Of a stretch of 40,651 bases of DNA, positions 6,207 through 19,299 are shown in pieces (the stretch's first letter is position 1; every line of letters starts with the position of its first letter). The stretch covers positions 1 to 40,651 of the forward strand of contig JAKDNL010000009.1 of NCBI GenBank assembly GCA_030451825.1, in the 5' to 3' direction. The position numbers and the translations under genes are program-made. The stretch is from Pseudonocardia sp. (GTDB taxonomy: Bacteria; Actinomycetota; Actinomycetes; Mycobacteriales; Pseudonocardiaceae). Under the pieces are notes generated by a model that was not told the origin of the DNA, searched no databases, and was given only the letters and a program-made list of their open reading frames with translations.

Positions 6207-6236
6207 CCGCGCCGCCCCCCATGATCGACGGGTGTA

Positions 6237-6270
6237 GGCGGATCGGGGCCACCACTGGCCCCGATCCGCC
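6237..6270. terminator. Perfect 15-bp hairpin inside the mycofactocin operon
   Basis: The arms at 6237-6251 (GGCGGATCGGGGCCA) and 6256-6270 are perfectly complementary around a 4-nt loop. In the minus-strand mRNA the hairpin comes about 27 nt after the mftC stop and before the first OYE gene. There is no U-run after it; the five-U run lies before it. It may be a partial terminator or an RNA-stabilising stem setting different levels of mftABC and the oxidoreductase/mftE genes. Confidence 0.8.
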
Positions 6271-6297
6271 CACAGAAAAAGATCACTGACGAGCTGG

Positions 6298-7557
6298 TCA
6301 GCTCCCGGCGACCGGAACCGCGACCGGCGCGGCGGCGTCGACCGGCATACCGGCCAGCGGGCTCTCGTCGCAGGCCCGGTCGGGACGCCGCGGCGGCGGG
6401 GCCAGGCTCAGCATCGTCGGCGCTGTGCTCCTGCCCGCCCGCCCGGCGCGGGAGTTGCGCGGCTCCGAACGGGAGTGGTCCACGTCCGACTTCGGGATCA
6501 CGGTCTCGCCGTTCCGGTCGGCCAGCATCTGCTCGCCGAAGCCGCGCACGCACTCGGGGTCCGGGCCGTCGAGGGGCAGGCCGGTGAAGAACTTCGCCGC
6601 CATGCACCCGCCCTGGCAGGAGTCGTAGTGATCGCAGGACGCGCAGGCGCCGCCGGTCTGTGGCTGGCGCAGCTCGGTGAACAGCTCCGAGTTCTCCCAG
6701 ACCTCCTGGAAACCGCCGGGCGAGCGGACGTTGCCGGCCAGGAAGTTCTCGTGGATCGCGAACGGGCAGGCGTAGACATCGCCGACCGGGTCGATCAGGC
6801 AGACCACGCGCCCGGCGCCGCACAGGTTCAGCCCCGGCAGGGCCTCGCCGAACGCCGAGAGGTGGAAGAACGAGTCGCCGGTCAGGACGTTGTCACCGCT
6901 CTTGACCAGCCAGTCGTAGAGCTGGCGCTGCTGCGGTGCGGTCGGGTGCAGCTCGTCCCAGACGTCCGCGCCGCGGCCGGACGGGCGCAGCCGGGTGATC
7001 CGCAGCTGCGCGTTGTACTTGTCCGCGATGGCCTTGAACTCGTCGAGCTGGTCGACGTTCTGGCGGGTCATCACGACCGAGATCTTGGGCTGGCCGAAGC
7101 CCGCCTCGGCCAGGTTCTCCAGCGCGCGGATGGACGTGTCGAACGATCCCGGGCCGCGCACGTGGTCGTTGACCTCGGCGGTGGCGCCGTCCATCGAGAT
7201 CTGGATGTCGACGTAGTCGGTGCGGGCGAGCTGCGCGGACCGCTTCTTGTCCAGCTTGATGCCGTTGGTGGAGAACTTGACCCCGACGCCTGAGTCGATC
7301 GAGTAGTCGAGGAGCTCCCAGAAGTCCGGGCGCACGGTCGGCTCGCCGCCACCGATGTTGATGTAGAAGACCTGCATCCGCTGCAGCTCGTCGATGACGT
7401 GCTTGGCCTCGGCGGTGTCGAGCTCACGCGGGTCGCGGCGGCCGGACGAGGACAGGCAGTGCACGCACGCCAGGTTGCAGGCGTAGGTGAGTTCCCAGGT
7501 CAGACAGATGGGCGAGTTCAAGCCGTACTGGAAATGGTCGACGAGCTTCACGGGCAC
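6298..7557 (-). CDS. mftC: MftC, mycofactocin radical SAM maturase
   Basis: The 419-residue product is a radical SAM/SPASM enzyme that acts on the C-terminal Val-Tyr of MftA, by decarboxylation and then C-C bond formation. The SAM-cluster motif CxxxCxxC is at Cys27, Cys31 and Cys34 (YACNLACVHC). The SPASM region has LCGAGRVVC, YACPF, CASCDHYDSCQGGC and a final PECVRGFG, enough cysteines for two auxiliary clusters. The C-terminal 65 or so residues, rich in Pro, Ala and Arg, look like a disordered tail. It starts with GTG 40 bp after mftB and needs the MftB chaperone next door. Codon use matches its neighbours and no damage is seen. Confidence 0.96.
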   Translation of the reverse strand: MPVKLVDHFQYGLNSPICLTWELTYACNLACVHCLSSSGRRDPRELDTAEAKHVIDELQRMQVFYINIGGGEPTVRPDFWELLDYSIDSGVGVKFSTNGIKLDKKRSAQLARTDYVDIQISMDGATAEVNDHVRGPGSFDTSIRALENLAEAGFGQPKISVVMTRQNVDQLDEFKAIADKYNAQLRITRLRPSGRGADVWDELHPTAPQQRQLYDWLVKSGDNVLTGDSFFHLSAFGEALPGLNLCGAGRVVCLIDPVGDVYACPFAIHENFLAGNVRSPGGFQEVWENSELFTELRQPQTGGACASCDHYDSCQGGCMAAKFFTGLPLDGPDPECVRGFGEQMLADRNGETVIPKSDVDHSRSEPRNSRAGRAGRSTAPTMLSLAPPPRRPDRACDESPLAGMPVDAAAPVAVPVAGS

Positions 7558-7597
7558 ACTCCACTGTGGTGCGTCGAGCGGGAACGGGCGAGGGCGC

Positions 7598-7912
7598 TCA
7601 GCGCGCTTCGATGGTGCCGGACTCGGCGAGACCGGCGAGGGCCTTCAGGTAGGCGGGACGCTGGCCCTCGGCGACGCCGGCCGCGGCGACCGCGGCATGC
7701 ACGTCGGGGTGGTTCTCGAGGCCCTTGACGACCTCGACGAGTTCGGGGGTCTTGAGGAACGAGAGCTTGCGGGTCACGAAGTCGTACACCAGCGCGCCGA
7801 AGGGCTCCGGGCGCAGCGCCACGTTGGGGCTGCACCGGTAGGCCGATCCGGGGTCGAACGCCGACCCCGGACCGGCCACCGTCTCGCTGGCGTCGAGCGG
7901 CTTAGTAGACAC
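7598..7912 (-). CDS. mftB: MftB, mycofactocin peptide chaperone (RiPP recognition element)
   Basis: This small protein of 104 residues presents MftA to MftC. The recognisable core is VALRPEPFGALVYDFVTRKLSFL followed by a short helical C-terminus, as in PqqD-like recognition elements. The open frame runs further upstream across mftA, but that part is the shadow of mftA. I place the start at the GTG at 7912, which gives the N-terminus VSTKPLDASET and overlaps the last codons of mftA by 11 nt, indicating translational coupling. A later GTG, in the codons for ETVAG, is a possible alternative. Confidence 0.92.
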   Translation of the reverse strand: MSTKPLDASETVAGPGSAFDPGSAYRCSPNVALRPEPFGALVYDFVTRKLSFLKTPELVEVVKGLENHPDVHAAVAAAGVAEGQRPAYLKALAGLAESGTIEAR

Positions 7913-8003
7913 CGCACATGCCGTCGATGGAGACCTCCTCGACGAGGGTCTCCTCGACGAGCGGCTCCTGAGTGGTGGACTCGTTCTGCTCGGTCGGGGC
8001 CAT
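7902..8003 (-). CDS. mftA: MftA, mycofactocin precursor peptide
   Basis: This 33-residue peptide is too short for most gene finders. It starts MAPTEQNESTTQEPLVEE and ends in the diagnostic IDGMCGVY, whose last two residues, Val-Tyr, become the cofactor core after MftC and MftE act. The leader is acidic (Glu-rich), as expected for MftB binding. The ATG at 8003 has a perfect AGGAGG at 8011-8016, about 7 nt away. It is the first gene of the operon, and a promoter with an operator-like palindrome lies just upstream. Confidence 0.97.
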   Translation of the reverse strand: MAPTEQNESTTQEPLVEETLVEEVSIDGMCGVY

Positions 8004-8042
8004 CGGCGTACCTCCTGCGTGACGGAACGGGCAACGTTTCGG

Positions 8043-8071
8043 ACGTTATTGGCACTCGGTGCCGAAAGCAA
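8043..8071 (-). promoter_or_regulatory. mftA promoter (-35 TTGCTT, -10 TAACGT, 17-bp spacer)
   Basis: On the minus strand TTGCTT (8066-8071) and TAACGT (8043-8048) are separated by exactly 17 bp and precede mftA by about 40 bp, giving a predicted 5' leader of about 33 nt. A second inverted repeat, AACGT-TTCGG-ACGTT (8033-8047), covers the -10 and start point. No other candidate upstream of mftA is as good. Confidence 0.65.
8051..8063. promoter_or_regulatory. Operator-like palindrome in the mftA promoter spacer
   Basis: GGCAC-TCG-GTGCC (13 bp) sits entirely between the -35 and -10 elements of mftA, a position where a bound repressor blocks polymerase. In mycobacteria the mft operon is controlled by the TetR-type MftR. 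No mftR is in this window, so the regulator would act from elsewhere. Confidence 0.55.
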
Positions 8072-8109
8072 GGATCGCCCGGCCCGCCCGTCCGATCAGG
8101 CAGGGGCGC

Positions 8110-9267
8110 ATGCTGGCCTCCGTGGAGGACGTCCTGCTGCACCTGTGCACCCCCGCCGACTGGCGCGCCGCCCTGACCTCGGGATCGGTCGCGCCGCCGT
8201 CACTGGAGGAGGTGGGCTTCGTGCACCTGTCGACCGCCGAACAGGTGGCGCTACCCGCCGAGCGCCTGTTCCACGGACGGCGCGACATGGTGCTGCTCGT
8301 CGTCGACCGGGCCACGCTGGACCGGGCCGGGATCGACCTCCGGTGGGAGCCGGGCGTGCCCGGGGACCCGGAGTCGATGCGGTTCCCGCACGCCTACGGC
8401 GCGGTGCCGGCGTCCGCGGTGCTGGCCGTACTCCCCTACCGTCCGGACGGCGAGGGCCGGTTCGCCGCGCCCTCGGTGCCGGAGCCGGACGCCCGGAACC
8501 GGGCCGCGCTGTCCGAGCCGTCGCTGCTGCGCCGGGCCGCGACCGAGGAGATCCCGGTGACCGGCGGCGTCGCGGTGCGCACCGACGCCGTACCGGCCTC
8601 GCGGATGCACAACCAGCTGCTGCTGGAGGGGGCCGTGGACGCCGCGACGGTCGTCGCCGAGGCGGACCGGACGCTCGACGGGCTGGCGCACCGGGCCGCC
8701 GTCCTCTACGGCGAGGCGCTCGCCGGCGCGGCCGACGACCTGCGCGGGCGCGGCTGGACGGTCGACGAGCTGCGCCTGATGACCGCGCCGGCCGCGCGGG
8801 CCCCCGGAGAGAGCGCCCCAGGTGGGAGCGGCCCGGGAGGGACAGGCCCGTCCCGCGTCGAGGACGTCGACATCGAGGCGCTGCGCCCGCAGTGGGACGC
8901 GACCTGGCGGCGCACCGTCCCGGGCATGCCCGACGGCGAGATCGCCCAGCTCACCGACCGCTACCGGATCGAGGAGGCGGTGACCCGGGTACTCCCGCTG
9001 GCGGTGCGTGACGGCGCGACGGTGGTGGCGTCCTGCCTGCTCAAGATCGACGGGGCGACGGCGTGGCTGGACCTGCTGGAGACCGACCCGCGACACCGCG
9101 GACGAGGGCACGGCCGGGCGCTGGTCGAGGCGGCACGCGACCGGGCCGCCGCGGCCGGCTGCGACCTCGTCGCCCTGAGCACGGCGGCGCAGGGCTGGCC
9201 GCGCGAGTGGTACGCCCGGTGCGGGTTCGTCGAGGTCGGACGCTGCTGGGTCGCCGCGCGGTTCTGA
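8110..9267 (+). CDS. DUF952 - GNAT acetyltransferase fusion protein
   Basis: The 385-residue protein has two recognisable parts. The N-terminal 110 residues resemble DUF952 (LLHLCTPADW, GFVHLSTAEQV, RFPHAYGAVP). The C-terminal 200 or so residues are GNAT-like, with acetyl-CoA loop DPRHRGRGHGRALVEAA at about 325-340 and a final WYARCGFVEVG. A Gly/Pro/Ser-rich linker separates halves of the GNAT region at about 235-255. I chose the ATG at 8110; a GTG at 8059 would place the start inside the mftA promoter. The gene is divergent from mftA with 106 bp between. Substrate unknown; a link to mycofactocin is not shown. Confidence 0.8.
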   Translation: MLASVEDVLLHLCTPADWRAALTSGSVAPPSLEEVGFVHLSTAEQVALPAERLFHGRRDMVLLVVDRATLDRAGIDLRWEPGVPGDPESMRFPHAYGAVPASAVLAVLPYRPDGEGRFAAPSVPEPDARNRAALSEPSLLRRAATEEIPVTGGVAVRTDAVPASRMHNQLLLEGAVDAATVVAEADRTLDGLAHRAAVLYGEALAGAADDLRGRGWTVDELRLMTAPAARAPGESAPGGSGPGGTGPSRVEDVDIEALRPQWDATWRRTVPGMPDGEIAQLTDRYRIEEAVTRVLPLAVRDGATVVASCLLKIDGATAWLDLLETDPRHRGRGHGRALVEAARDRAAAAGCDLVALSTAAQGWPREWYARCGFVEVGRCWVAARF

Positions 9268-9320
9268 GCGCGCCCTCCGACCGGGCAGGTGGATCCAGGC
9301 CGATCGACCCGGGAGGTGAC

Positions 9321-9350
9321 GCCCATTAGTAGCTGTTGCGGATAACTTGC
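9321..9350 (+). promoter_or_regulatory. Promoter/activator motif upstream of mdo copy 1
   Basis: A 30-bp block beginning GCCCATTA and containing GCGGATA is shared, 23 of 30 positions and without gaps, with 13446-13475 upstream of the second mdo. Within it TAACTT (9343-9348) could be a -10 hexamer, which puts CCCATTA at the -35 position, as for an activator-dependent promoter. The predicted leader before the ATG at 9433 is about 78 nt. Confidence 0.6.
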
Positions 9351-9432
9351 AATAGTCATGATTGGGCTCGTACTCGTCAGTGGCGATGCGCGGCTCCGCT
9401 GCGCTTCGCGCTCAGCACCCTCGAGGAGAGCC

Positions 9433-10704
9433 ATGGCCATCGAGCTCAACCAGATCTGGGACTTCCCGATCAAGGAGTTCCACCCGTTCCCCCGCGCCCT
9501 GCTCGGCGTCGGCGCGCACGACATCCTGGGCGTGGAGGCCAAGAACCTCGGCTTCAAGCGGACGCTGCTGGTCACCACGGGCCTGCGCGGCTCCGGGATC
9601 ATCGACGAGCTCAAGGGCAAGATCGAGTACCAGGGCGTCGAGGTCGTCGTCTACGACAAGGTGGAGTCCAACCCCAAGGACTACAACTGCATGGACGCCG
9701 CCGCGCTCTACCAGAGCGAGAAGTGCGACTCCATCATCTCGGTCGGCGGCGGGTCCTCGCACGACGCCGCCAAGGGCGCCCGCGTCGTGATCGCGCACGA
9801 CGGCCGCAACATCAACGAGTTCGAGGGCTTCTCCAAGTCCACGAACCAGCAGAACCCGCCGCACATCGCGGTCTCCACCACGGCCGGCACCGGCTCGGAG
9901 ACGTCCTGGGCCTACGTCATCACCAACACCAGCGACATGGCCAACCCGAAGAAGTGGGTCGGGTTCGACGACGCCGTCGTCTGCACCCTGGCACTCGACG
10001 ACCCGCTGCTCTACTACAGCTGCCCGCAGCACTTCACCGCCTACTGCGGCTTCGACGTCCTGGCGCACGGCTCCGAGCCGTTCGTGTCCCGGATCGACTT
10101 CGACTCCTCGATGGGCAACGCGCTCTACTCGGTCGAGCTGGTGGGCAAGTACCTGCGCGAGGCGACGTTCGAGCCGCGCAACCTCAAGGCCCGCGAGAAG
10201 ATGATGAGCGCGCAGTACATCGCGGCGCAGGCGTTCAACTCGGGCGGCCTGGGCATCATCCACTCCACATCGCACGCGGTGAGCGCGTTCTTCGACACCC
10301 ACCACGGGCTCAACAACGCGATCGCGCTGCCCCGGGTGTGGGAGTACAACCTGCCGTCGCGCTATGAGAAGTACGCACAGATCGCCACCGCGCTCGGCGT
10401 CGACACGAAGAACATGACGACCGTGCAGGCCGCGGACGCGGCGGTCGAGGAGGCCATCCGGCTGTCCAAGGACCTCGGCATCCCGGACAACTTCGGGGGC
10501 CTCAAGCCGGACTCGTACGACAAGAACCGGATGAACACCGGCAAGTACGAGGGTGTGGGCACCGAGATCCCGTCCGACGACAAGACCGTCCGCAAGATCT
10601 CCGAGCACATGATGGGCGACTACTGCACGCCGGCGAACCCGCGCGAGTGCACCGTCGACTCGCTGGTGCCGCTGGTGAAGCACGCCTTCGCCGACGCGTA
10701 CTAA
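9433..10704 (+). CDS. mdo: NDMA-dependent methanol dehydrogenase-type alcohol dehydrogenase (Mdo), copy 1
   Basis: The 423-residue metal-dependent (iron-containing family, group III) alcohol dehydrogenase is full length for the Mdo/Mno family, and its N-terminus MAIELNQIWDFPIKEFHPF is characteristic. It carries tightly bound NAD(H) and oxidises methanol or other primary alcohols; recycling of that NADH in vivo needs mycofactocin, mimicked by NDMA in vitro. Motifs: GGGSSHDAAKG (about 104-114) for NAD, metal ligands in GFDVLAHGSEPF (about 206-217) and IIHSTSHAVSAF...THHGLNN (about 275-295). AGGAG lies 5 nt before the chosen ATG; a longer frame from 9358 lacks family support. It heads module 1, ahead of a MoxR ATPase and VWA protein. 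Confidence 0.93.
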   Translation: MAIELNQIWDFPIKEFHPFPRALLGVGAHDILGVEAKNLGFKRTLLVTTGLRGSGIIDELKGKIEYQGVEVVVYDKVESNPKDYNCMDAAALYQSEKCDSIISVGGGSSHDAAKGARVVIAHDGRNINEFEGFSKSTNQQNPPHIAVSTTAGTGSETSWAYVITNTSDMANPKKWVGFDDAVVCTLALDDPLLYYSCPQHFTAYCGFDVLAHGSEPFVSRIDFDSSMGNALYSVELVGKYLREATFEPRNLKAREKMMSAQYIAAQAFNSGGLGIIHSTSHAVSAFFDTHHGLNNAIALPRVWEYNLPSRYEKYAQIATALGVDTKNMTTVQAADAAVEEAIRLSKDLGIPDNFGGLKPDSYDKNRMNTGKYEGVGTEIPSDDKTVRKISEHMMGDYCTPANPRECTVDSLVPLVKHAFADAY

Positions 10705-10735
10705 CAGGATTCCCACGTCACACCCCTCCCCGCGT

Positions 10736-10788
10736 GGCACTCGTGAGTCATGACGTGCGCAACTCGCTCGTCGTGACCCACGAGTGCC
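10736..10788 (+). terminator. 20-bp-arm hairpin between mdo copy 1 and its AAA+ gene
   Basis: Arms GGCACTCGTGAGTCATGACG (10736-10755) and 10769-10788 pair at 18 of 20 positions around a 13-nt loop, starting 31 nt after the mdo stop and ending about 50 nt before the ATPase start. It would act as a leaky terminator or a 3' stabiliser, giving much dehydrogenase and little ATPase from one promoter. Confidence 0.75.
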
Positions 10789-10839
10789 GCCGGGGCGGGC
10801 CGGTGTGGTCCGTCTGCGATGTGTGTACTGAGGAGACCG

Positions 10840-11892
10840 GTGTACGAGAGCGCCGAGAAGCTGACCGAAGCCCTGGCCGGCGAGAACTACGTCATCGACC
10901 ACGACTTCGCCGTCGTGGTCCACCTGGCCACCCACCTGGAACGGCCGCTGCTGCTGGAGGGACCCGCCGGCGTCGGCAAGACCGAGCTGGCCAAGTCGCT
11001 GGCCCAGGCGTCGGGGCGACGGCTGATCCGCCTGCAGTGCTACGAGGGCCTCGACGACAGCCGCGCGCTCTACGAGTGGGACTACGGCAAGCAGCTGATG
11101 CACGTCCAGATGCTGCGCGACCGGATCGGCGAGCTGCTGTCCGGGACCACGACCATGGCGGAGGCGTCGGCGAAGCTGCAGGCAGAAGACACCGGCCTGT
11201 ACTCCGAGCATTTCCTGTCCGTCCGTCCGCTGCTGGAGACCGTGCTCAGCGAGGACCCGGTGGTGCTGCTCGTCGACGAGGTGGACCGCACCGAGGAGTC
11301 GATGGAGGCGCTGCTGCTGGAGATCCTGGCCGAGCAACAGGTCACCGTGCCCGAGGTCGGCACGTTCAGCGCCCGCCGGGCGCCGTGGGTCGTGCTCACC
11401 TCGAACGACACCCGCGAGCTCTCGCCCGCCCTCAAGCGCCGCTGCCTGCACTTCCACGTGGACTTCCCGGACGTCGCGCGCGAGACCGAGATCGTCTCCC
11501 GGCGCGCGCCGGAGGTCGCGACCGACGTGGTCGGCGACGTGGTGGAGCTGGCCCGCAGGCTCCGCGACATGCCGCTGCGCAAGGCTCCCTCGATCTCCGA
11601 GGTGATCGACGCGGCGCGGGCGGCCGCCGTCCTGGACCAGGGCGCGGGCGAGCAGGTCCGCAAATACCTGCTCGCGGCGCTGCTCAAGTACAGCTCCGAC
11701 ATGGACATGGCGTTGCGCAGGCTGGACGGCCCCCCGGTGGAGGAGCCCGAGGTCGAGATCGCCGACGACAGCGGCTGGGTGAACCGCTCGAGCCGCCCGC
11801 TCAACACGACCAGCGCGGCGTTCCGGGGCCGCGGCGGCGGCTCTGCGTCCACATCGGCAGGTCGGGGCGGCCGGGGCACCGGGCGCCGATGA
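10840..11892 (+). CDS. MoxR-family AAA+ ATPase, module 1 (CbbQ/NorQ/CoxD-like)
   Basis: The 350-residue single AAA+ domain protein has Walker A GPAGVGKTE (about 41-50), Walker B VVLLVDEVDR (about 140), sensor 1 VLTSNDTRE (about 186) and an arginine-finger region LKRRCLHFHVDFP (about 198). MoxR proteins pair with VWA proteins to remodel or load metal into a partner enzyme. A C-terminal Gly/Arg/Ser tail lies after about 320. The GTG at 10840 is preferred because AGGAG lies just 5 nt before it; the in-frame ATG at 10819 has no ribosome site. It overlaps the VWA gene by ATGA. The likely client is the upstream Mdo. Confidence 0.88.
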   Translation: MYESAEKLTEALAGENYVIDHDFAVVVHLATHLERPLLLEGPAGVGKTELAKSLAQASGRRLIRLQCYEGLDDSRALYEWDYGKQLMHVQMLRDRIGELLSGTTTMAEASAKLQAEDTGLYSEHFLSVRPLLETVLSEDPVVLLVDEVDRTEESMEALLLEILAEQQVTVPEVGTFSARRAPWVVLTSNDTRELSPALKRRCLHFHVDFPDVARETEIVSRRAPEVATDVVGDVVELARRLRDMPLRKAPSISEVIDAARAAAVLDQGAGEQVRKYLLAALLKYSSDMDMALRRLDGPPVEEPEVEIADDSGWVNRSSRPLNTTSAAFRGRGGGSASTSAGRGGRGTGRR

Positions 11893-13439
11893 CGGCCGGG
11901 CTGCTCGACGTGTCCGGGGCACCCGGTAGCCGGGTGCTCGCCGTGCTGTCCGCCGCGTTCGGGCGGGTCCTGCGCACCCAGGGGGTCTCCGCCTCCCCGG
12001 CCGAGGTGATCGAGGTCCGCCGGGTGCTCGCCGCGCTGGGCGCCGCCGACCTGGACACGCTGCGTCCCGGGCTGCGCGCGGTCACCGTCAAGTACGACCA
12101 CGAGCGGGCCGGGTTCGAGCGCTCCTTCGACGCGTTCTTCGGGCTGATCGCCGAGGCGGTCGCGCGCGAGGCCGGGGACGAGCCCCGGTCGGGCATGCGC
12201 GAGCCCGGCGACGAGGGTCTTCCCACCGACCTGGAGCTGACCGAAGAGGACGACCCGCTCGGTCGCTTCGCGGACCACGACCCGCGGGCCGCCGAGGTCG
12301 GCGACATGATCGACTCCGAGGAGAGCGACGGGAACTTCAACCCGCATCGCGACGACGACGACCTGTCCATGGCCGGCTCGGACTCGGACCTGTCGGTGTC
12401 CTCCGGCGCGGACCAGGGCCGGCGCGGGATGAGCTACACCGTCGACCTGGAACGGGCCGGCAGCGCCGTGGCGAAGGAGCTGACCTCGGCGCAGAGCGCC
12501 CCGGTGGCCGACTCGATCGACTGGGACGACCCGGAGGCGATCATCGCCTGGCTGGCAGCCTACGACCCGTACTCGGTCTACGCCGACGGCCCGGAGGGCG
12601 ACCTCTCGCAGCTCTCCGCGACGCAGCTCGGACGCCTGGTGGAGGCGATCTCGAACTTCGTCTCCGCGCTGGCCGACCGGGTCGCCGAGTCCGGCCCGTC
12701 CCGCCCCGGCCCGGACGACGACCGGGAGACGTTCGACCCGGCCGACATGCAACGCGCCTGCCACGAGCTGCTGCGCCGGATGCGCGGAGCACCGCGACGG
12801 GTGCCCCGCAGGCACTCACACGGGCCGCTCGACATCCGGCACACGGTCCGGCGCAGCATGGCATCGGACGGCGTCCCGTTCCACCTGGTCATGCGCAGGT
12901 CGGTGCCCGACCGGGTCCGGCTGCTGGTCGTCGCGGACGTGTCGCTGTCGGTCCGGGCGGTGACCGCGTTCGTGCTGGCGCTGGCCCAGACCCTGCACAG
13001 GCAGGCCTACCGCTGCCAGGTTCTGGCCTATGTGGACACTCCGGTGGACGTGACGCAGACGCTGATGCGCGCGAGCGGGGATCAGGCACTGGCCGCCGTG
13101 CTCGCCGCCCCCGGCCTGGACCTGGACGCGACAAGCGACTACGGCCGCGTGATGACCGAGCTCAACAGCGAGTTCGCCGGGTTCGTGGACAAGCGGACCG
13201 CGGTGCTGTTCGTCGGCGACGGGCGGTGCAACGGCCTGCCCTCGGGCGACGAGGAGCTGCGCCGGCTGCGGCGTCGCGCGCACCGGGTCGGATGGATCAC
13301 CCCGGAGCCGCGTCGCTACTGGGACCAGGCCTCCTGCGCGATGGAGGTCTACGACGACATCGTCGACCAGGTCGTCATCGCCCGCGACGCCGCGGAGCTG
13401 CTCGATCGGGCCGGCGAGCTGGGGCACGCCCTGTCCTGA
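11889..13439 (+). CDS. VWA-domain protein, CoxE-like, module 1
   Basis: The 516-residue partner of the MoxR ATPase has an all-helical N-terminal part (about 1-100), an acidic Asp/Glu/Ser-rich linker (about 110-180, with EEDD, EESDG and DDDD runs), a helical middle (DIRHTVRRSMASDGVPF at about 315) and a C-terminal VWA domain with a MIDAS metal site: DVSLS near 350, TSDYG near 417 and FVGDGR near 440. This matches the CoxE/CbbO/NorD adaptors that bind both ATPase and client. No His-rich tract is present, unlike its module 2 paralogue. It is coupled to the ATPase gene by the ATGA overlap. Confidence 0.87.
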   Translation: MTAGLLDVSGAPGSRVLAVLSAAFGRVLRTQGVSASPAEVIEVRRVLAALGAADLDTLRPGLRAVTVKYDHERAGFERSFDAFFGLIAEAVAREAGDEPRSGMREPGDEGLPTDLELTEEDDPLGRFADHDPRAAEVGDMIDSEESDGNFNPHRDDDDLSMAGSDSDLSVSSGADQGRRGMSYTVDLERAGSAVAKELTSAQSAPVADSIDWDDPEAIIAWLAAYDPYSVYADGPEGDLSQLSATQLGRLVEAISNFVSALADRVAESGPSRPGPDDDRETFDPADMQRACHELLRRMRGAPRRVPRRHSHGPLDIRHTVRRSMASDGVPFHLVMRRSVPDRVRLLVVADVSLSVRAVTAFVLALAQTLHRQAYRCQVLAYVDTPVDVTQTLMRASGDQALAAVLAAPGLDLDATSDYGRVMTELNSEFAGFVDKRTAVLFVGDGRCNGLPSGDEELRRLRRRAHRVGWITPEPRRYWDQASCAMEVYDDIVDQVVIARDAAELLDRAGELGHALS

Positions 13440-13445
13440 TCTATT

Positions 13446-13475
13446 GCCCATTAATGGCAGTAGCGGATATGCTGC
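13446..13475 (+). promoter_or_regulatory. Promoter/activator motif upstream of mdo copy 2
   Basis: This is the same 30-bp block as at 9321-9350. Here its first part is a perfect palindrome, CCATTAATGG, and the -10-like hexamer is TATGCT (13468-13473). It starts just 7 bp after the stop of the module 1 VWA gene and leaves a leader of about 157 nt before the ATG at 13637. The two half-sites flanking TA recall the 7-2-7 layout bound by NarL-type regulators; this is only a resemblance. Confidence 0.6.
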
Positions 13476-13636
13476 GAGAGCCCGGTCGTCGACCGGCGGT
13501 CCCGGACTGCTCCCTGTACGACCAGACGGTTTCCGCCCCGCCCTCTTGACGGTCTTGCGCCGAGCCCCTGTGCGCGCGGTCACGGCACCCCTACCGTCCG
13601 GGGCTGACCCACCCGCCGGCACCAGAGAGGGCTGCA

Positions 13637-14929
13637 ATGCAGGTTGACGAACTGTTGAAGCCGTTCCCCATCAAGGAGTTCCACCCGTTCCCCCGGGCGC
13701 TGATGGGGCCCGGCGCACACGAGATGATCGGCCCGGAGGCCCTGAACCTGGGCTTCAAGAAGACGCTGGTGATGACGTCGGGCCTGCGCGGCACCGACGT
13801 CGTGCACAAGATCGTCGAGTCGATGAAGTACCACGGCCTCGAGGTCGTCCTCTACGACAAGGTCGAGTCGAACCCCAAGGACTACAACGTCATGGACGCT
13901 GTGGGCCTCTACCAGCAGAACAAGTGCGACTCGTTCGTCTCCATCGGCGGCGGCTCCTCGCACGACGCCTGCAAGGGCGCGCGGATCTCGGTCGCCCACG
14001 ACGGCCGCAACGTCAACGAGTTCGAGGGCTTCAACAAGTCCGAGAACCCGGCGAACCCGCCGCACATCGCGGTCTCCACCACGGCCGGTACCGGCTCGGA
14101 GACCTCGTGGGCCTACGTCATCACCGACACCACGACCGACCCGGACAACCCGCACAAGTACGTCGCGTTCGACGACGCGTCGGTGACCAGCCTGGCGATC
14201 GACGACCCGGTGCTCTACTTCGACTGCCCGGTCGACTTCACCGCGCAGTGCGGCTTCGACGTGCTCGCGCACGCGTCCGAGCCCTACACCTCGCGGCTGA
14301 ACTTCCAGCCGTCGCTGGGCAACGCGCTGCACGCCATCAAGCTGACCTCGGAGCACCTGCGCGCGGCGGTGTGGAACGGCCAGGACCTGGCCGGTCGCGA
14401 GGGCATGATGTACGCGCAGTACATCGCCGCACAGGCGTTCAACTCCGGCGGGCTGGGCATCGTCCACTCGATCTCGCACGCCGTATCGGCGTTCTACGAC
14501 CTGCACCACGGCCTGAACAACGCCATCGCGCTGCCGCGCGTGTGGGCGTTCAACATGCCGGTCTGTTACGGGCGCTTCGCCGACATCGCCGAGGCGATGG
14601 GCATCGACACCCACGGCATGACCAAGCCGCAGGCCGCCGACGCCGCGCTCGCCGCGTCCATCCGGTTGCTGCGCGATGTGGGCATCCCGGAGAAGTTCGC
14701 CGACGTCACCAAGGACTCGTACTCGAAGAACCGGCTGGGCCAGGGCCCGACCAAGTACTACGAGAACGTGACCCGGGTGGTCGGTGACGCGGCCGACATC
14801 GACCGGGTCACGAACCACGTCCTCGGCGACGCCTGCACCCCGGGCAACCCGAAGGAGTGCACGTTCGAGACGGTCCGCCCGGTCGTCGAGCACTCGTTCA
14901 ACGGTGACCTGGACGAGCTCATCCCCTGA
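13637..14929 (+). CDS. NDMA-dependent methanol dehydrogenase-type alcohol dehydrogenase (Mdo), copy 2
   Basis: This 430-residue close paralogue of copy 1 has a different N-terminus (MQVDELLKPFPIKEFHPF) but the same NAD site GGGSSHDACKG, metal ligands (GFDVLAHASEPY; GIVHSISHAVSAF...LHHGLNN) and C-terminal CTPGNPKECT block. Both copies look intact, so they probably differ in substrate (for example methanol against longer alcohols or formaldehyde) or in induction; the sequence alone does not decide this. AGAGAGG lies about 7 nt before the ATG. It heads module 2, with its own ATPase and VWA genes. Confidence 0.92.
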   Translation: MQVDELLKPFPIKEFHPFPRALMGPGAHEMIGPEALNLGFKKTLVMTSGLRGTDVVHKIVESMKYHGLEVVLYDKVESNPKDYNVMDAVGLYQQNKCDSFVSIGGGSSHDACKGARISVAHDGRNVNEFEGFNKSENPANPPHIAVSTTAGTGSETSWAYVITDTTTDPDNPHKYVAFDDASVTSLAIDDPVLYFDCPVDFTAQCGFDVLAHASEPYTSRLNFQPSLGNALHAIKLTSEHLRAAVWNGQDLAGREGMMYAQYIAAQAFNSGGLGIVHSISHAVSAFYDLHHGLNNAIALPRVWAFNMPVCYGRFADIAEAMGIDTHGMTKPQAADAALAASIRLLRDVGIPEKFADVTKDSYSKNRLGQGPTKYYENVTRVVGDAADIDRVTNHVLGDACTPGNPKECTFETVRPVVEHSFNGDLDELIP

Positions 14930-14936
14930 TCGACCC

Positions 14937-14955
14937 CCGCGGGCACTGCCCGCGG
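14937..14955 (+). terminator. Short GC hairpin after mdo copy 2
   Basis: CCGCGGGC and GCCCGCGG form a perfect 8-bp stem with a 3-nt loop, 7 nt after the stop codon. It matches in position, not in sequence, the hairpin after mdo copy 1, so both modules have a stem between the dehydrogenase and ATPase genes. Confidence 0.65.
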
Positions 14956-15090
14956 ATGAGCGGTTCCGTCATCAGACGCGCCCCAGCGGGCTCACCCGGC
15001 CTCCGCGAGTGATACTGGAGGTCGGGTGGGCCCGCTGGTCGCGTGCCGCCACGTTCGTCAGTCCCGGACGTGGCCCCGGAAGGAGAGTTC

Positions 15091-16389
15091 GTGTCCGAGG
15101 AAGTTGCCCCGTCGCAGTCCGGCGTCGCGCCCGGTCCCGTCGTCGCGGACCAGCCCTTCGAGTCCGTGGACGAGGTCGTCGAGGCCCTGCGCGGTCAGGG
15201 CTACATCGCCGACACCCGTCTGGCCACCACCGTCTACCTGCTGACGCGGCTGGACAAGCCGTTGCTGCTGGAGGGCCCGGCCGGTGTCGGGAAGACCGAG
15301 CTGGCCAAGATGCTGGCGCTGGCCACCGGCCGCCGGCTGCTGCGCCTGCAGTGCTACGAGGGCCAGGACGAGACCAAGGCCCTCTACGAGTGGGACTACG
15401 GCAAGCAGCTCATGTACACCCAGATCCTGCGGGAGAAGATCGGCCAGGTGGTGGCCGACGCCCCGGATCTGACCTCCGCCGTCGAGCGGATCGGCGAGCA
15501 GGACAGCGTGTTCTTCTCCGAGCGCTTCCTCGCCCCGCGCCCGCTGCTGGAGGCGATCCGCTCGCCCGAGCCGGTCGTGCTGTTGATCGACGAGGTCGAC
15601 CGCGCCGACGAGGCACTCGAAGCCGTCCTGCTGGAGACGCTCGGCGAGTTCCAGATCTCGGTGCCCGAGATCGGCACGTTCACGGCCGAGAAGCGCCCCT
15701 ACGTGCTGCTGACCTCGAACAACACCCGCGACCTGGCCGCCGCGCTCAAGCGTCGCTGCCTGCACCTGTTCCTCGACTACCCGGCCGCCGCGCGCGAGCT
15801 GGAGATCGTCAAGTCGAAGAAGACCGGGCTGTCCGACTCGCTCGCCGAGGAGCTCGTCACGGTCGTGCGCGGGCTGCGCGAGCTCGAGCTGCGCAAGGCC
15901 CCGAGCATCTCGGAGACGATCGACTGGGCCCGCACGCTGGCCGTGCTGGGCGTCGACGACCTCAACCCGCAGGTGCTCTCGGACACCGTCTCGGTCGTGG
16001 TCAAGTACGACAAGGACGTGAGAAAGGCCCTCGACGCACTGCCGCGCCTGGTCGACCCGAACGCCGTCGTCGACGACGACGGCGGCCACGGGCACGGCCA
16101 TGGTCACGGGCACGGCCACGACGGCGACCACTCGCACGACGAGCCGGCCGCCCGGCCCGCTCCCGCTCCCGCTCCGGCCGCGTCGTCGCGTCCCGCGGCG
16201 AGCGACGACCCGGACGACGGCGATGTCGACGGCGTCGCCAGACGCGCGGGCAAGGACGCGCCCGGACGGCACGGCGGGGTCTACGGCGGGCTGCCCGGCG
16301 GGAATCCCCCGCCGCCGTCCGCGATCCGCAAGGTGACGCCCGGGCAGGGAAGCCGCTCGTTCGGCGGCAGCCGCAAGCGCCCGATCTAG
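15091..16389 (+). CDS. MoxR-family AAA+ ATPase, module 2, with Gly-His-rich tail
   Basis: The 432-residue paralogue of the module 1 ATPase has Walker A EGPAGVGKTE (about 60-70), Walker B VVLLIDEVDR (about 163), sensor 1 LLTSNNTRD and LKRRCLHLF. It has an extra C-terminal region of about 100 residues that starts with an alternating Gly-His run and further His/Asp residues (about 331-352), then Pro/Ala-rich and Gly-rich disordered sequence. Such tracts bind metals in HypB, UreE and CooJ. The GTG at 15091 follows AAGGAGAG; the open frame starts at 15043 but without a ribosome site. The VWA partner starts 18 bp downstream. Confidence 0.88.
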   Translation: MSEEVAPSQSGVAPGPVVADQPFESVDEVVEALRGQGYIADTRLATTVYLLTRLDKPLLLEGPAGVGKTELAKMLALATGRRLLRLQCYEGQDETKALYEWDYGKQLMYTQILREKIGQVVADAPDLTSAVERIGEQDSVFFSERFLAPRPLLEAIRSPEPVVLLIDEVDRADEALEAVLLETLGEFQISVPEIGTFTAEKRPYVLLTSNNTRDLAAALKRRCLHLFLDYPAAARELEIVKSKKTGLSDSLAEELVTVVRGLRELELRKAPSISETIDWARTLAVLGVDDLNPQVLSDTVSVVVKYDKDVRKALDALPRLVDPNAVVDDDGGHGHGHGHGHGHDGDHSHDEPAARPAPAPAPAASSRPAASDDPDDGDVDGVARRAGKDAPGRHGGVYGGLPGGNPPPPSAIRKVTPGQGSRSFGGSRKRPI

Positions 16390-16407
16390 ATCGGGAGAGG
16401 AGCCGGA

Positions 16408-17952
16408 GTGGAAGCGAGCATCCATCGTTTCGTCCGGCTGCTCCGCATACGCGCGATCCGCATCTCGGTCTCCGAGGCCGTGGACGCGATGTTGTGTGCG
16501 GGCCAGCCGGGCGTCATGTCCGACAAGGCCACCCTCAAGGAGGCGCTGCGCGTCTCGCTGATCAAGGACCGGCGCGACGAGGAGGTCTTCGACGAAGTCT
16601 TCGACCTGTTCTTCTCACTGGTCAAGGTGGGCGAACAGGACAGGGGCCACGGCCACGGGCACGGCCACGGCGACCTGTCCGACGACGGTGTGCTGGAGGA
16701 CTTCACGCTCTCCGAGGAGCCGAGCGATACGCCGCAGGAGGGCCACGACCACGGCACGCCGGTCGACATCCGGGACTACTTCGACCCGGAGGACATGGCC
16801 GAGCAGTACAACCTGCACCAGGAGGCCAACAAGGTCGACCTGGCGGCGATGACCGACGAGATCGTGTTCTCCACGGACAAGGAGGGCCAGGAGATCACCG
16901 AGGGCCAGCGGGTCCAGATCGAGACCGACCGGTTCTCCGGCGGCGGTCTGCCCGGAGACATCTCCGAGGCCCAGGGCACCAAGGTCGACGCCGACCTCTC
17001 GGTCGCCCAGCAGGACGCCCTGCTCGGCTGGCTCAACTCCGAGGAGGATGCCCTCTCCGAGAAGGAGAAGGGCAACGAGGACGACGCGGCCGCGCTGCGG
17101 CGGCGCCTGGCCGGCGTCCTGGAGAACCTCCCGGAGGCGATCAAGGCCCACCTGGAGAAGCTGCTCGAGATCGAGCAGCGGATCGTCGAGGGGCACGACG
17201 ACGTCGACCGGGTCGCCGAGGTGGACCGGGCGAGCGAGCACGAGCGGATGCAGCTCGAGGACTCGCTGCGGCGGCTGGCCAAGTCGCTGCACGGGGCCCT
17301 GACCCACCGGCGCCGGGTCTCCCCGCGCGGGCGGATCGACTCGGGCCGCACGATGCGCAAGAACATGCGCTACGACGGCGTCCCGTTCAATCCGGTCACG
17401 GTGCAGCGCCAGGAGGACAAGCCGCGCCTGGTGGTGCTGGCCGACGTCTCACTTTCGGTGCGGGCCACGGCGCGGTTCACCCTGCACCTGGTGCACGGGC
17501 TGCAGGACCTGTTCGGCCAGGTGCGCTCGTTCGCGTTCGTGGCCGACCTGCTCGAGGTCACCGACCTGTTCGCCGACCACCCGGTGGAGCAGGCACTGGG
17601 GATGATCTTCGGTGGGGACCAGCTCGACGTGGACGCGAACTCGCACTACGGGCTCGCGTTCGGCCAGTTCCTGGAGGAGCACCCGACGGCGGTCACCCGC
17701 CGGTCCACGGTGCTGATCCTGGGCGACGGCCGGGGCAACGGGAACGACCCCAACATGGAGGCGTTCATCGAGATCACGAGGCGGGCCCGGGAGACGATCT
17801 GGCTCACCCCAGAGCCGAGATACTCCTGGGGCCTGGGCCGCTGCGACCTGCCCGCCTACGCCGAACACTGCGACCGCGTGAGAGTCGTGCGCGACCTGTC
17901 CGGCCTGGAGAACACCACCAACGAGATGGCCGGCGAGCTGATCGGACGCTGA
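16408..17952 (+). CDS. VWA-domain protein, CoxE-like, module 2, with Gly-His tract
   Basis: The 514-residue partner of the module 2 ATPase has a helical N-terminus, then a Gly-His run (RGHGHGHGHG, about 79-88) and a second small cluster EGHDHG (about 110), a long charged helical middle and a C-terminal VWA domain with MIDAS residues DVSLS (about 345), NSHYG (about 413) and ILGDGRGNG. The block GRTMRKNMRYDGVPFNPV precedes the VWA as in the module 1 copy. GAGAGGAG lies just before the GTG. His tracts in both partners point to metal handling by the complex. Confidence 0.87.
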   Translation: MEASIHRFVRLLRIRAIRISVSEAVDAMLCAGQPGVMSDKATLKEALRVSLIKDRRDEEVFDEVFDLFFSLVKVGEQDRGHGHGHGHGDLSDDGVLEDFTLSEEPSDTPQEGHDHGTPVDIRDYFDPEDMAEQYNLHQEANKVDLAAMTDEIVFSTDKEGQEITEGQRVQIETDRFSGGGLPGDISEAQGTKVDADLSVAQQDALLGWLNSEEDALSEKEKGNEDDAAALRRRLAGVLENLPEAIKAHLEKLLEIEQRIVEGHDDVDRVAEVDRASEHERMQLEDSLRRLAKSLHGALTHRRRVSPRGRIDSGRTMRKNMRYDGVPFNPVTVQRQEDKPRLVVLADVSLSVRATARFTLHLVHGLQDLFGQVRSFAFVADLLEVTDLFADHPVEQALGMIFGGDQLDVDANSHYGLAFGQFLEEHPTAVTRRSTVLILGDGRGNGNDPNMEAFIEITRRARETIWLTPEPRYSWGLGRCDLPAYAEHCDRVRVVRDLSGLENTTNEMAGELIGR

Positions 17953-18026: not shown

Positions 18027-18102
18027 CGCGGCACGGGTCCGGGGCCCGGACTCGGGAGCGAGGCCATGGCTCGCAACACCGATGGTGGGGCAGGATGCGG
18101 GC

Positions 18103-19299
18103 ATGGCGGCCTACGGCGACTACCAGCTCGAGATCTACGGGGCCGGGCTGCGCGGCCGGGTTCCGACGCTGCCGATGAGGTTCGACGAGCTGGAGCGCCG
18201 CGCGCAGGCGGCGCTGCCGCCGTCGATCTGGTCCTACGTCGCGGGCGGGGCCGGTGACGAGCGCACCCAGCGCGCCAACGCCGACGCGTTCGGCGCGTGG
18301 GGCCTGGTGCCGCGGATGCTGGTCGGCGCGACCGAGCGCGACCTGACGGTGAGCCTGTTCGACTTGGAGCTGCCGACGCCGCTTTTCCTGTGCCCGATCG
18401 GCGTGCTCGGGCTGTGCGCGCAGGACGGGCACGGTGACCTGGCCACCGCCCGCGCCGCCGCCCGCACCGGCGTCCCGATGGTGGCCTCGACGCTGACCGT
18501 GGACCCGATGGAGGACGTCGCGGCGCAGCTCGGCGACACCCCGGGCCTGTTCCAGCTCTACACCCCGAACGACCGCGAGCTCGCCGAGAGCCTGGTGCAC
18601 CGCGCCGAGGGGTCCGGCTACCGGGCGATCGTGGTCACGCTCGACACCTGGGTCACCGGCTGGCGCCCGCGCGACCTCTCGACGGCGAACTTCCCGCAGC
18701 TGCGCGGGCACTGCGTCGCCAACTACACCTCGGACCCGGTGTTCCGCTCCCGGCTCGAGAAGAGCCCCGAGGACGACCTGGCCGCGGCGACCGCATACTG
18801 GGCCAGGGCGTTCGGGCACGCGTTCACCTGGGAGGACCTGGACTGGCTGCGCGGGGTGACCGACCTGCCGATCGTGCTCAAGGGAATCTGTCACCCGGAC
18901 GACGCGCGGCAGGCCCTGGACGCCGGCGCGGACGGGATCTACGTCTCCACCCACGGTGGCCGCCAGGCCAACGGCGGGCTCTCGGCGCTGGAGATGCTAC
19001 CCGACGTCGTCGACGCCGTGGACGGTCGCGCACCGGTGCTGTTCGACTCCGGTGTCCGGTCCGGCTCGGACGCGGTGCTGGCGCTCGCGATGGGCGCGAC
19101 CGCGGTCGGGGTGGGCCGGCCCTACGCCTACGGGCTGGCCCTCGGTGGCGAGGACGGGATCGTGCACGTGCTGCGCTCGTTCCTGGCCGAGGCCGACCTG
19201 CTGATGGCCGTGGACGGCTACCCGTCGCTGGCCTCGCTCGACCATTCGGCGCTCCGTCGAACGGTGGGGGCCGCACGGGTCTGCGGACCACGCCCGTAA
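18103..19299 (+). CDS. Lactate 2-monooxygenase-like FMN-dependent alpha-hydroxy acid oxidase
   Basis: The 398-residue FMN enzyme closely follows the mycobacterial lactate 2-monooxygenase pattern: YGDYQLEIYGAGL at the N-terminus, LPPSIWSYVAGGAGDE, FQLYTPNDRE, LDTWVTGWRPRDL and DSGVRSGSDAV. It would oxidise L-lactate or a related 2-hydroxy acid with O2. The catalytic His (about 283) is in STHGGRQ, where family members usually have SNHGGRQ. I start at the ATG at 18103, which aligns with the family N-terminus; an ATG seven codons upstream is possible. MftD belongs to the same superfamily but differs at the N-terminus and elsewhere, so this is not called MftD. It is separated from module 2 by tandem hairpins. 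Confidence 0.85.
   Translation: MAAYGDYQLEIYGAGLRGRVPTLPMRFDELERRAQAALPPSIWSYVAGGAGDERTQRANADAFGAWGLVPRMLVGATERDLTVSLFDLELPTPLFLCPIGVLGLCAQDGHGDLATARAAARTGVPMVASTLTVDPMEDVAAQLGDTPGLFQLYTPNDRELAESLVHRAEGSGYRAIVVTLDTWVTGWRPRDLSTANFPQLRGHCVANYTSDPVFRSRLEKSPEDDLAAATAYWARAFGHAFTWEDLDWLRGVTDLPIVLKGICHPDDARQALDAGADGIYVSTHGGRQANGGLSALEMLPDVVDAVDGRAPVLFDSGVRSGSDAVLALAMGATAVGVGRPYAYGLALGGEDGIVHVLRSFLAEADLLMAVDGYPSLASLDHSALRRTVGAARVCGPRP

Follow-up and report, generated by a model that had tools for sequence, protein, structure and literature searches.

The window, a 40,651-nucleotide (40.7-kb) contig from a Pseudonocardia sp., contains two successive modules, A and B, each composed of genes encoding a methanol dehydrogenase (Mdo), a MoxR AAA+ ATPase (MadB), and a VWA protein (MadC). 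The module is real and strictly conserved, and MadB and MadC (together MadBC) very probably serve the Mdo encoded beside them. On balance, MadBC is probably a maturation machine of the NorQ/NorD kind, dedicated to Mdo and most likely inserting metal. The genome comprises 7.5 Mb in 968 contigs and is 94% complete and 8% contaminated; the closest named relatives at the window locus are Pseudonocardia. An earlier note on this DNA had described two successive sets in the order mdo–MoxR–VWA and in the same orientation, and all six genes are present, on the + strand:

9433..10704, + strand: mdo type A (mdo1), N,N-dimethyl-4-nitrosoaniline (NDMA)-dependent methanol dehydrogenase, TIGR04266 871 bits (cut-off 625), Pfam Fe-ADH
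10819..11892, + strand: madB type A (MoxR1), MoxR AAA+ ATPase with intact Walker A and B motifs, NF047784 519 bits (cut-off 475)
11889..13439, + strand: madC type A (VWA1), CoxE-like VWA protein, NF047783 700 bits (cut-off 600), Pfam VWA_CoxE
13637..14929, + strand: mdo type B (mdo2), TIGR04266 672 bits (cut-off 625)
15091..16389, + strand: madB type B (MoxR2), GTG start, MoxR AAA+ ATPase with a His-rich C-terminal tail, NF047784 383 bits
16408..17952, + strand: madC type B (VWA2), GTG start, CoxE-like VWA protein with HGHGHGHG in its linker, NF047783 263 bits

The matches to TIGR04266 and Pfam Fe-ADH assign the product of mdo type A to the nicotinoproteins with the fold of iron-containing alcohol dehydrogenases. 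The start of madC type A overlaps the stop of madB type A. Both helpers of module A pass the cut-offs of the NCBIfam MadB and MadC models. The helpers of module B score below them (383 against 475 for MadB, 263 against 600 for MadC), and they are homologous to the families without being members by the cut-off rule. Module B represents a divergent, His-rich branch that the present MadB and MadC models miss.

The arrangement of Mdo, MadB, and MadC is conserved far beyond chance. Among 298 genomes of the order, all 37 Mdo copies (35 fetched loci and the two of the window) are followed by their own MadB and MadC, on the same strand and always of one type. The search for MadC in these genomes returned 37 full-length matches, the next being a 168-bit match that covers only part of MadC, and no full-length MadC without Mdo was found among them. 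Therefore, a general pair serving many enzymes was rejected for the MadBC subfamilies. The other MoxR/VWA pairs of the same genome, on contigs C263 and C130, have far lower scores and no His runs. A survey of 396 genomes of the phylum yielded 27 Mdo-like copies in 25 genomes, six copies within the order and 21 outside it. Outside the order, MadB is located next to Mdo in all 20 copies that have room for a next gene (of 21), and 17 of the 21 copies, or 17 of the 19 with room, have MadC further along the same contig. The copies without a following MadC are L114 and L148, which lie at contig ends, and L132 and L139, in which foreign cargo follows. We read L132 and L139 as interrupted modules because the open reading frames that follow resemble, by eye, the cargo located between MadB and MadC in L145 and L146. 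An extra gene separates MadB from MadC in L127 and L136. Four MadC genes without a listed Mdo are at or near contig ends and adjoin MadB or a piece of it. In named genomes, a search whose query was headed by a type B protein gave 359 relatives, of which the best 80 were kept, all of them type B. MadB is present in 80 of these 80 loci and Mdo in 79; the exception, L187, is cut by a contig end. The module was also found on all four plasmids opened, two of which carry it beside methane/ammonia-monooxygenase-like genes. The proposal of the earlier note that the MoxR/VWA pair is dedicated to Mdo is borne out by this adjacency, which is the rule and not a rarity. Its further proposal, that each pair is matched to its own dehydrogenase, holds at the level of subfamilies, where each pair stays with its own type of Mdo.

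The two modules had been interpreted as a duplication of one whole module, which is not borne out. Module A belongs to a separate, old subfamily and is held as a 4.2-kb unit beside module B. The modules share 62% identity in Mdo, 52% in the MadB core, and 27% in MadC. In the 298 genomes, the TIGR04266 scores form two groups, 831–975 bits for the 10 copies of type A and 645–693 bits for the 27 copies of type B, and the MadC scores are split likewise (672–793 versus 245–299). Sequences over the score limits comprised 137 Mdo, 138 MadB, and 138 MadC, and 131 modules contained all three. For each of the three proteins, type A (10 modules) and type C (12 modules) form clades with support of 0.99–1.0; type C is a third type, which comes from a different family of the phylum. 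Type B, with 106 of the 131 modules, is a clade for Mdo and for MadB, whereas the MadC tree does not recover it as one. The split of A+C from B+B' is supported for Mdo (0.96) and absent from the MadB and MadC trees. Types A and B occur together in two of the 298 genomes, that of the window and G081 (separate contigs).

The comparison of the window with the corresponding locus of Pseudonocardia sp. KRD291 (L151) by blastn delimits the type A module. Positions 6298–9285 match at 88% and 13473–17922 at 93%, and between them lies the following unit:

9286..13472, + strand: type A module as one element, missing from this position in KRD291, which has 73 bases instead

Because this unit is absent there, module A is understood as a 4.2-kb element, consisting of three genes and a promoter, which was gained here or lost in KRD291. 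KRD291 may hold a copy of module A elsewhere, since the L151 contig ends soon after. The best relatives of module A in the set have identities of 80–84% for Mdo, 65–66% for MadB, and 52–56% for MadC, and module B is 92–96% identical to that of KRD291. The flanks retrieved for the 80 named type B loci, which extend up to 8 kb and are in some cases cut by contig ends, revealed no type A gene. A recent tandem duplication was rejected in view of the identities between the modules, their separate clades, and the closer relatives that each has elsewhere.

The matching of Mdo, MadB, and MadC trees is clear at the level of subfamilies, as the type A and C clades recur in all three, and weak within type B. 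The gene mftC lies within the fetched stretches of 41 of the 80 named type B loci and served as a control in a mirror-tree analysis of these 41. The correlations were 0.85 for Mdo–MadB, 0.81 for Mdo–MadC, and 0.84 for the control Mdo–mftC. Partial correlations given mftC were 0.52 for Mdo–MadB and 0.34 for Mdo–MadC, and none of 999 permutations was as high. Because the control correlates as well, we do not lean on this result. The co-evolution expected from the earlier note is thus evident between subfamilies, but within type B it is no better than with mftC, and it does not help in choosing between metal insertion and activation of the finished enzyme.

The ATPase and MIDAS residues of the helpers and the ligand residues of Mdo are conserved. 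The Walker A and B motifs of MadB and the MIDAS motif DxSxS of MadC are intact in 131 of 131 modules. Residues D208, H212, H277, and H291 of Mdo (Mdo_B numbering), which correspond to the metal ligands of iron-containing alcohol dehydrogenases, are kept in 130–131 of 131. MadB tails with at least six His in 20 residues occur in 102 of 107 type B, three of three type B', one of 18 type C, and none of 10 type A modules; a further 15 of the 18 type C tails have four or five His in 20 residues. An HxH motif after the N-domain of MadC is present in 102 of 107 type B, three of three type B', 18 of 18 type C, and none of 10 type A modules. The type B modules without the His-rich MadB tail are the same five that lack the HxH motif of MadC. 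This joint absence represents at least two events: L085 sits among His-bearing relatives, in a clade of nine members with support of 0.998 in MadB and MadC, and L106–L109 form one group by Mdo and by MadB, though not by MadC. The residues between the His of the His-rich segments vary. The tail of the type B MadB of the window (MadB_B) contains eight His in 20 residues, a density reached in none of 2000 shuffles. Control proteins from this genome, two further MoxR and two VWA proteins, have at most three His in 20 residues.

AlphaFold2 models of the type B MadC (MadC_B, model m7aa12ebfe412) and the type A MadC (MadC_A, model m556b681dad48), with mean predicted local distance difference test (pLDDT) values of 65 and 69, respectively, show an ordered N-domain, a low-confidence linker of about 110–120 residues, and an ordered VWA domain. 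The His motif of type B falls within this linker, and the linker of MadC_A is acidic and without a His run. The fold search with the MadC_B model returned VWA domains of many kinds, with Midasin first and NorD at an E-value of 1.8e-4. MadB_B matches NorQ with an E-value of 1.6e-5 over a short stretch only, and its match to Midasin is stronger.

Hairpins between mdo and madB, reported in the earlier note, are real when compared with dinucleotide shuffles:

10705..10818, + strand: spacer between mdo and madB of module A, strong hairpin with no T run, −71.3 kcal/mol, z −8.7
14930..15090, + strand: spacer between mdo and madB of module B, strong hairpins with no T run, −100.0 kcal/mol, z −6.0

Of 49 such spacers folded, 40 have a z-score below −2. 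Because no T run follows the hairpins in the window, we read them as processing or attenuation elements. They would result in much Mdo and little MadBC, which would fit a catalytic helper.

Based on these features, a mechanism of Mdo maturation can be proposed. MadB, a MoxR AAA+ ring, would burn ATP and twist MadC. MadC would grip newly made Mdo through its N-domain, its linker, and the MIDAS metal site of its VWA domain, and would open it. A divalent metal, most likely zinc, would enter the Asp-His-His-His site of the opened Mdo. In types B and C, the His-rich segments of the MadB tail and MadC linker may hold or pass the metal, and type A would work without such a store. A more detailed version for types B and C, which we put forward tentatively, is that zinc or another divalent metal passes from the His tail of MadB to the His motif in the MadC linker, and that ATP-driven stretching of the linker pushes it into Mdo. 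MadBC would then be a MoxR/VWA machine with a built-in store, made specific by the inheritance of the three genes together as one movable unit.

Metal loading, which the earlier note had also suggested, agrees with the His-rich segments of types B and C and with the zinc response of the mno operon of M. smegmatis. This operon extends from MSMEG_6242, the dehydrogenase gene, to MSMEG_6238; MSMEG_6241 is listed as an ATPase AAA and MSMEG_6240 as a hypothetical protein (PMC11303327, PMC7174638). We take 6241 and 6240 to be MadB and MadC from gene position alone. An assignment of the operon to type A by gene order was dropped, because Fe-ADH and MftM genes lie downstream in Mycolicibacterium loci of type B as well, and the order does not separate A from B. 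In the published table, the fold changes of 6242, 6241, and 6240 are −27.6, −24.6, and −24.4 in the zur mutant, −6.4, −5.1, and −4.6 in the smtB mutant, and −4.6, (−3.7), and (−3.0) under zinc excess, with brackets as in that table (PMC7174638). Several observations weigh against metal insertion. The mno genes respond with a decrease, none of 6242–6240 carries a marked Zur site, and the zinc-excess values of 6241 and 6240 are those in brackets (PMC7174638). Mdh of B. methanolicus, which has the same fold and contains Zn and Mg, is described as active after production in E. coli, where a Nudix activator is its only helper (PMC3602061). Type A lacks His-rich segments in both MadB and MadC (0 of 10 each; the MadB tail of L079 has four His in 20 residues), and only one of 18 type C MadB tails attains six His in 20 residues. 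The His density of the window MadC_B is not unusual, since 30% of shuffles are as dense (P 0.30); therefore, its His motif is argued from conservation alone. The sequence of MadC_B finds no NorD in the PDB at an E-value of 10, and the match of its fold to NorD covers only the VWA domain and ranks below that to Midasin.

The main rival, which we consider rather unlikely, is that MadBC is an activase that acts on finished Mdo, as CbbQ/CbbO acts on Rubisco, without involvement of metal. It would open Mdo so that a nucleotide that is trapped or damaged can leave, or it would give mycofactocin access to the tightly bound NAD(P)H. Such a role would suit an Mdo that is a nicotinoprotein linked to mycofactocin (PMC11778925, PMC3023750), and the related Mdh of B. 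methanolicus has a dedicated activator, ACT (PMC3602061). CbbQO is described as highly homologous to NorQD (PMC13036017), and the lack of a metal store in type A also speaks for an activase. However, the His-rich segments of types B and C and the zinc response are left unexplained by it. A general chaperone for the folding, assembly, or protection from aggregation of multimeric Mdo is improbable. To our knowledge, other decameric or dimeric enzymes of the Mdo fold have no such pair, and a chaperone, too, does not account for the His-rich segments. The hairpin between mdo and madB may indicate a large excess of enzyme over helper, which would agree with a chaperone, and the MSMEG_6242 and MSMEG_6241 proteins rise together in mycofactocin mutants, for which the authors discuss aggregation (PMC8406134). 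Finally, the pair could serve another neighbour, such as a downstream Fe-ADH or an alkane monooxygenase, and be placed beside mdo for regulation. A further Fe-ADH does lie downstream of many modules, and monooxygenase-like genes adjoin the module on two of the four plasmids. These neighbours vary and are missing in the window, where module A consists of the three genes only, whereas Mdo–MadB–MadC is constant, and we regard this explanation as very improbable.

The earlier note had also placed a related promoter motif before each module. Both copies share GCCCATTA and an inverted repeat, TRTTGC-N9-GCARTA, but both are weak:

9321..9354, no strand given: upstream motif of module A, GCCCATTA, then TGTTGC-N9-GCAATA
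13446..13474, no strand given: upstream motif of module B, GCCCATTA, with an overlapping TATTGC-N9-GCAGTA

Such inverted repeats are present upstream of six of 39 Mdo genes (both window copies and 37 loci of L151–L188), compared with 2.3 expected from mononucleotide shuffles. The motif was therefore rejected as the mark of a regulon.

Divergent mycofactocin genes adjoin the two modules and encode MftB, the radical SAM maturase MftC, and a FadH/OYE oxidoreductase. A 402-residue protein that combines DUF952 at the N-terminus with a GNAT domain at the C-terminus is encoded between mftB and module A (8059–9267), and this stretch is also present in KRD291. A gene for an LldD-like flavin mononucleotide (FMN) enzyme (18082–19299) is located between madC of module B and mftM, and P. 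endophytica (L153) has such a gene at the same place. The enzyme scores 197 bits against the MftD cut-off of 471; since this is far below the cut-off, it may be a second pathway enzyme and not MftD.

Four loci of family f32 (L127, L136, L145, and L146) carry foreign genes between otherwise intact MadB and MadC. The cargo includes a DDE transposase and a ParE-like toxin in L127, and PD-(D/E)XK nuclease-family genes in L145 and L146. Locus L124 (genome G370) has tandem MadC genes (4424–5929 and 6153–7676) behind one Mdo and one MadB, the second being more divergent. The two plasmid-borne type B modules near genes for methane/ammonia-monooxygenase-like subunits are those of Mycolicibacterium chubuense NBB4 and Rhodococcus sp. 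ZPP (L231 and L234), which suggests that the module accompanies alkane oxidation on mobile DNA. In the genome of the window, an orphan MoxR/VWA pair lies near a RecQ-like helicase gene (L016, contig C263, 1–12000) with no obvious adjacent target enzyme, and partial MadC matches similar to this pair occur in many genomes of the order. A CoxD/CoxE-like pair and an XdhC/CoxI-family gene directly precede an ErcA-like Fe-ADH and a MadS-family histidine kinase (L015, contig C130, 5000–19000). The kinase (536 bits, cut-off 500) is the one that elsewhere follows mdo–madB–madC.

Through Mdo, actinobacteria gain access to methanol and other alcohols. A review attributes the neglect of such enzymes in synthetic methylotrophy to their requirement for mycofactocin (PMC9214030). 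Should MadBC be required as well, there would be a second cause of failure for Mdo transplanted without its helpers, and one that can be remedied. The few enzymes served by MoxR/VWA pairs would then be joined by a new class. Through the His-rich segments, metal delivery by such machines becomes directly testable, as type A and the five type B modules are natural variants without them.

The helpers themselves are named. NCBIfam contains models for MadB (NF047784), MadC (NF047783), MadS (NF047786), and MadR (NF047785), and module A is a member of the first two families. A Tsukamurella plasmid has the order mdo–madB–madC–adh–madS–madR, with all four Mad models over cut-off. The window contains neither MadS nor MadR; a MadS kinase is encoded on another contig of the genome. 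The earlier note knew of no described case, which needs correction in that these equivalog models exist, but no study of, or experiment on, MadB or MadC was found in the open-access literature searched.

Among characterized systems, ACT resembles MadBC as a helper that raises the activity of a related methanol dehydrogenase, that of B. methanolicus (PMC3602061). It differs in being a Nudix hydrolase, unrelated to MoxR/VWA proteins and not known to insert metal. CoxD/CoxE is a MoxR/VWA pair, and MadC matches Pfam VWA_CoxE; CoxD acts in building the CuSMoO2 cluster of CO dehydrogenase (PMC3471820). The target is a different one, and the genome of the window has a separate CoxD/CoxE-like pair beside an XdhC/CoxI-family gene. 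CbbQ/CbbO is likewise a MoxR/VWA pair dedicated to one enzyme, but it works on finished Rubisco by releasing inhibitors, with no link to metal. NorQ/NorD resembles MadBC in combining a MoxR ATPase with a three-part VWA protein, both encoded with one metal enzyme (PMC13036017, PMC9976466). NorD consists of an N-domain, a disordered linker, and a VWA domain, as in the MadC models (PMC9976466). NorQ stretches the linker of NorD, and partial deletion of the linker results in cytochrome c nitric oxide reductase without FeB iron (PMC13036017). MadBC has the traits of the NorQ/NorD type: the ATPase motifs, the MIDAS, the layout of N-domain, linker, and VWA domain, and genes encoded with the target. 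It differs from NorQ/NorD in its target, a soluble nicotinoprotein alcohol dehydrogenase instead of a membrane oxidoreductase. What appears to be new, as judged from the sequences, is the presence of His-rich segments in the MadB tail and MadC linker of types B and C, the proposed metal store that would set these types apart from NorQ/NorD.

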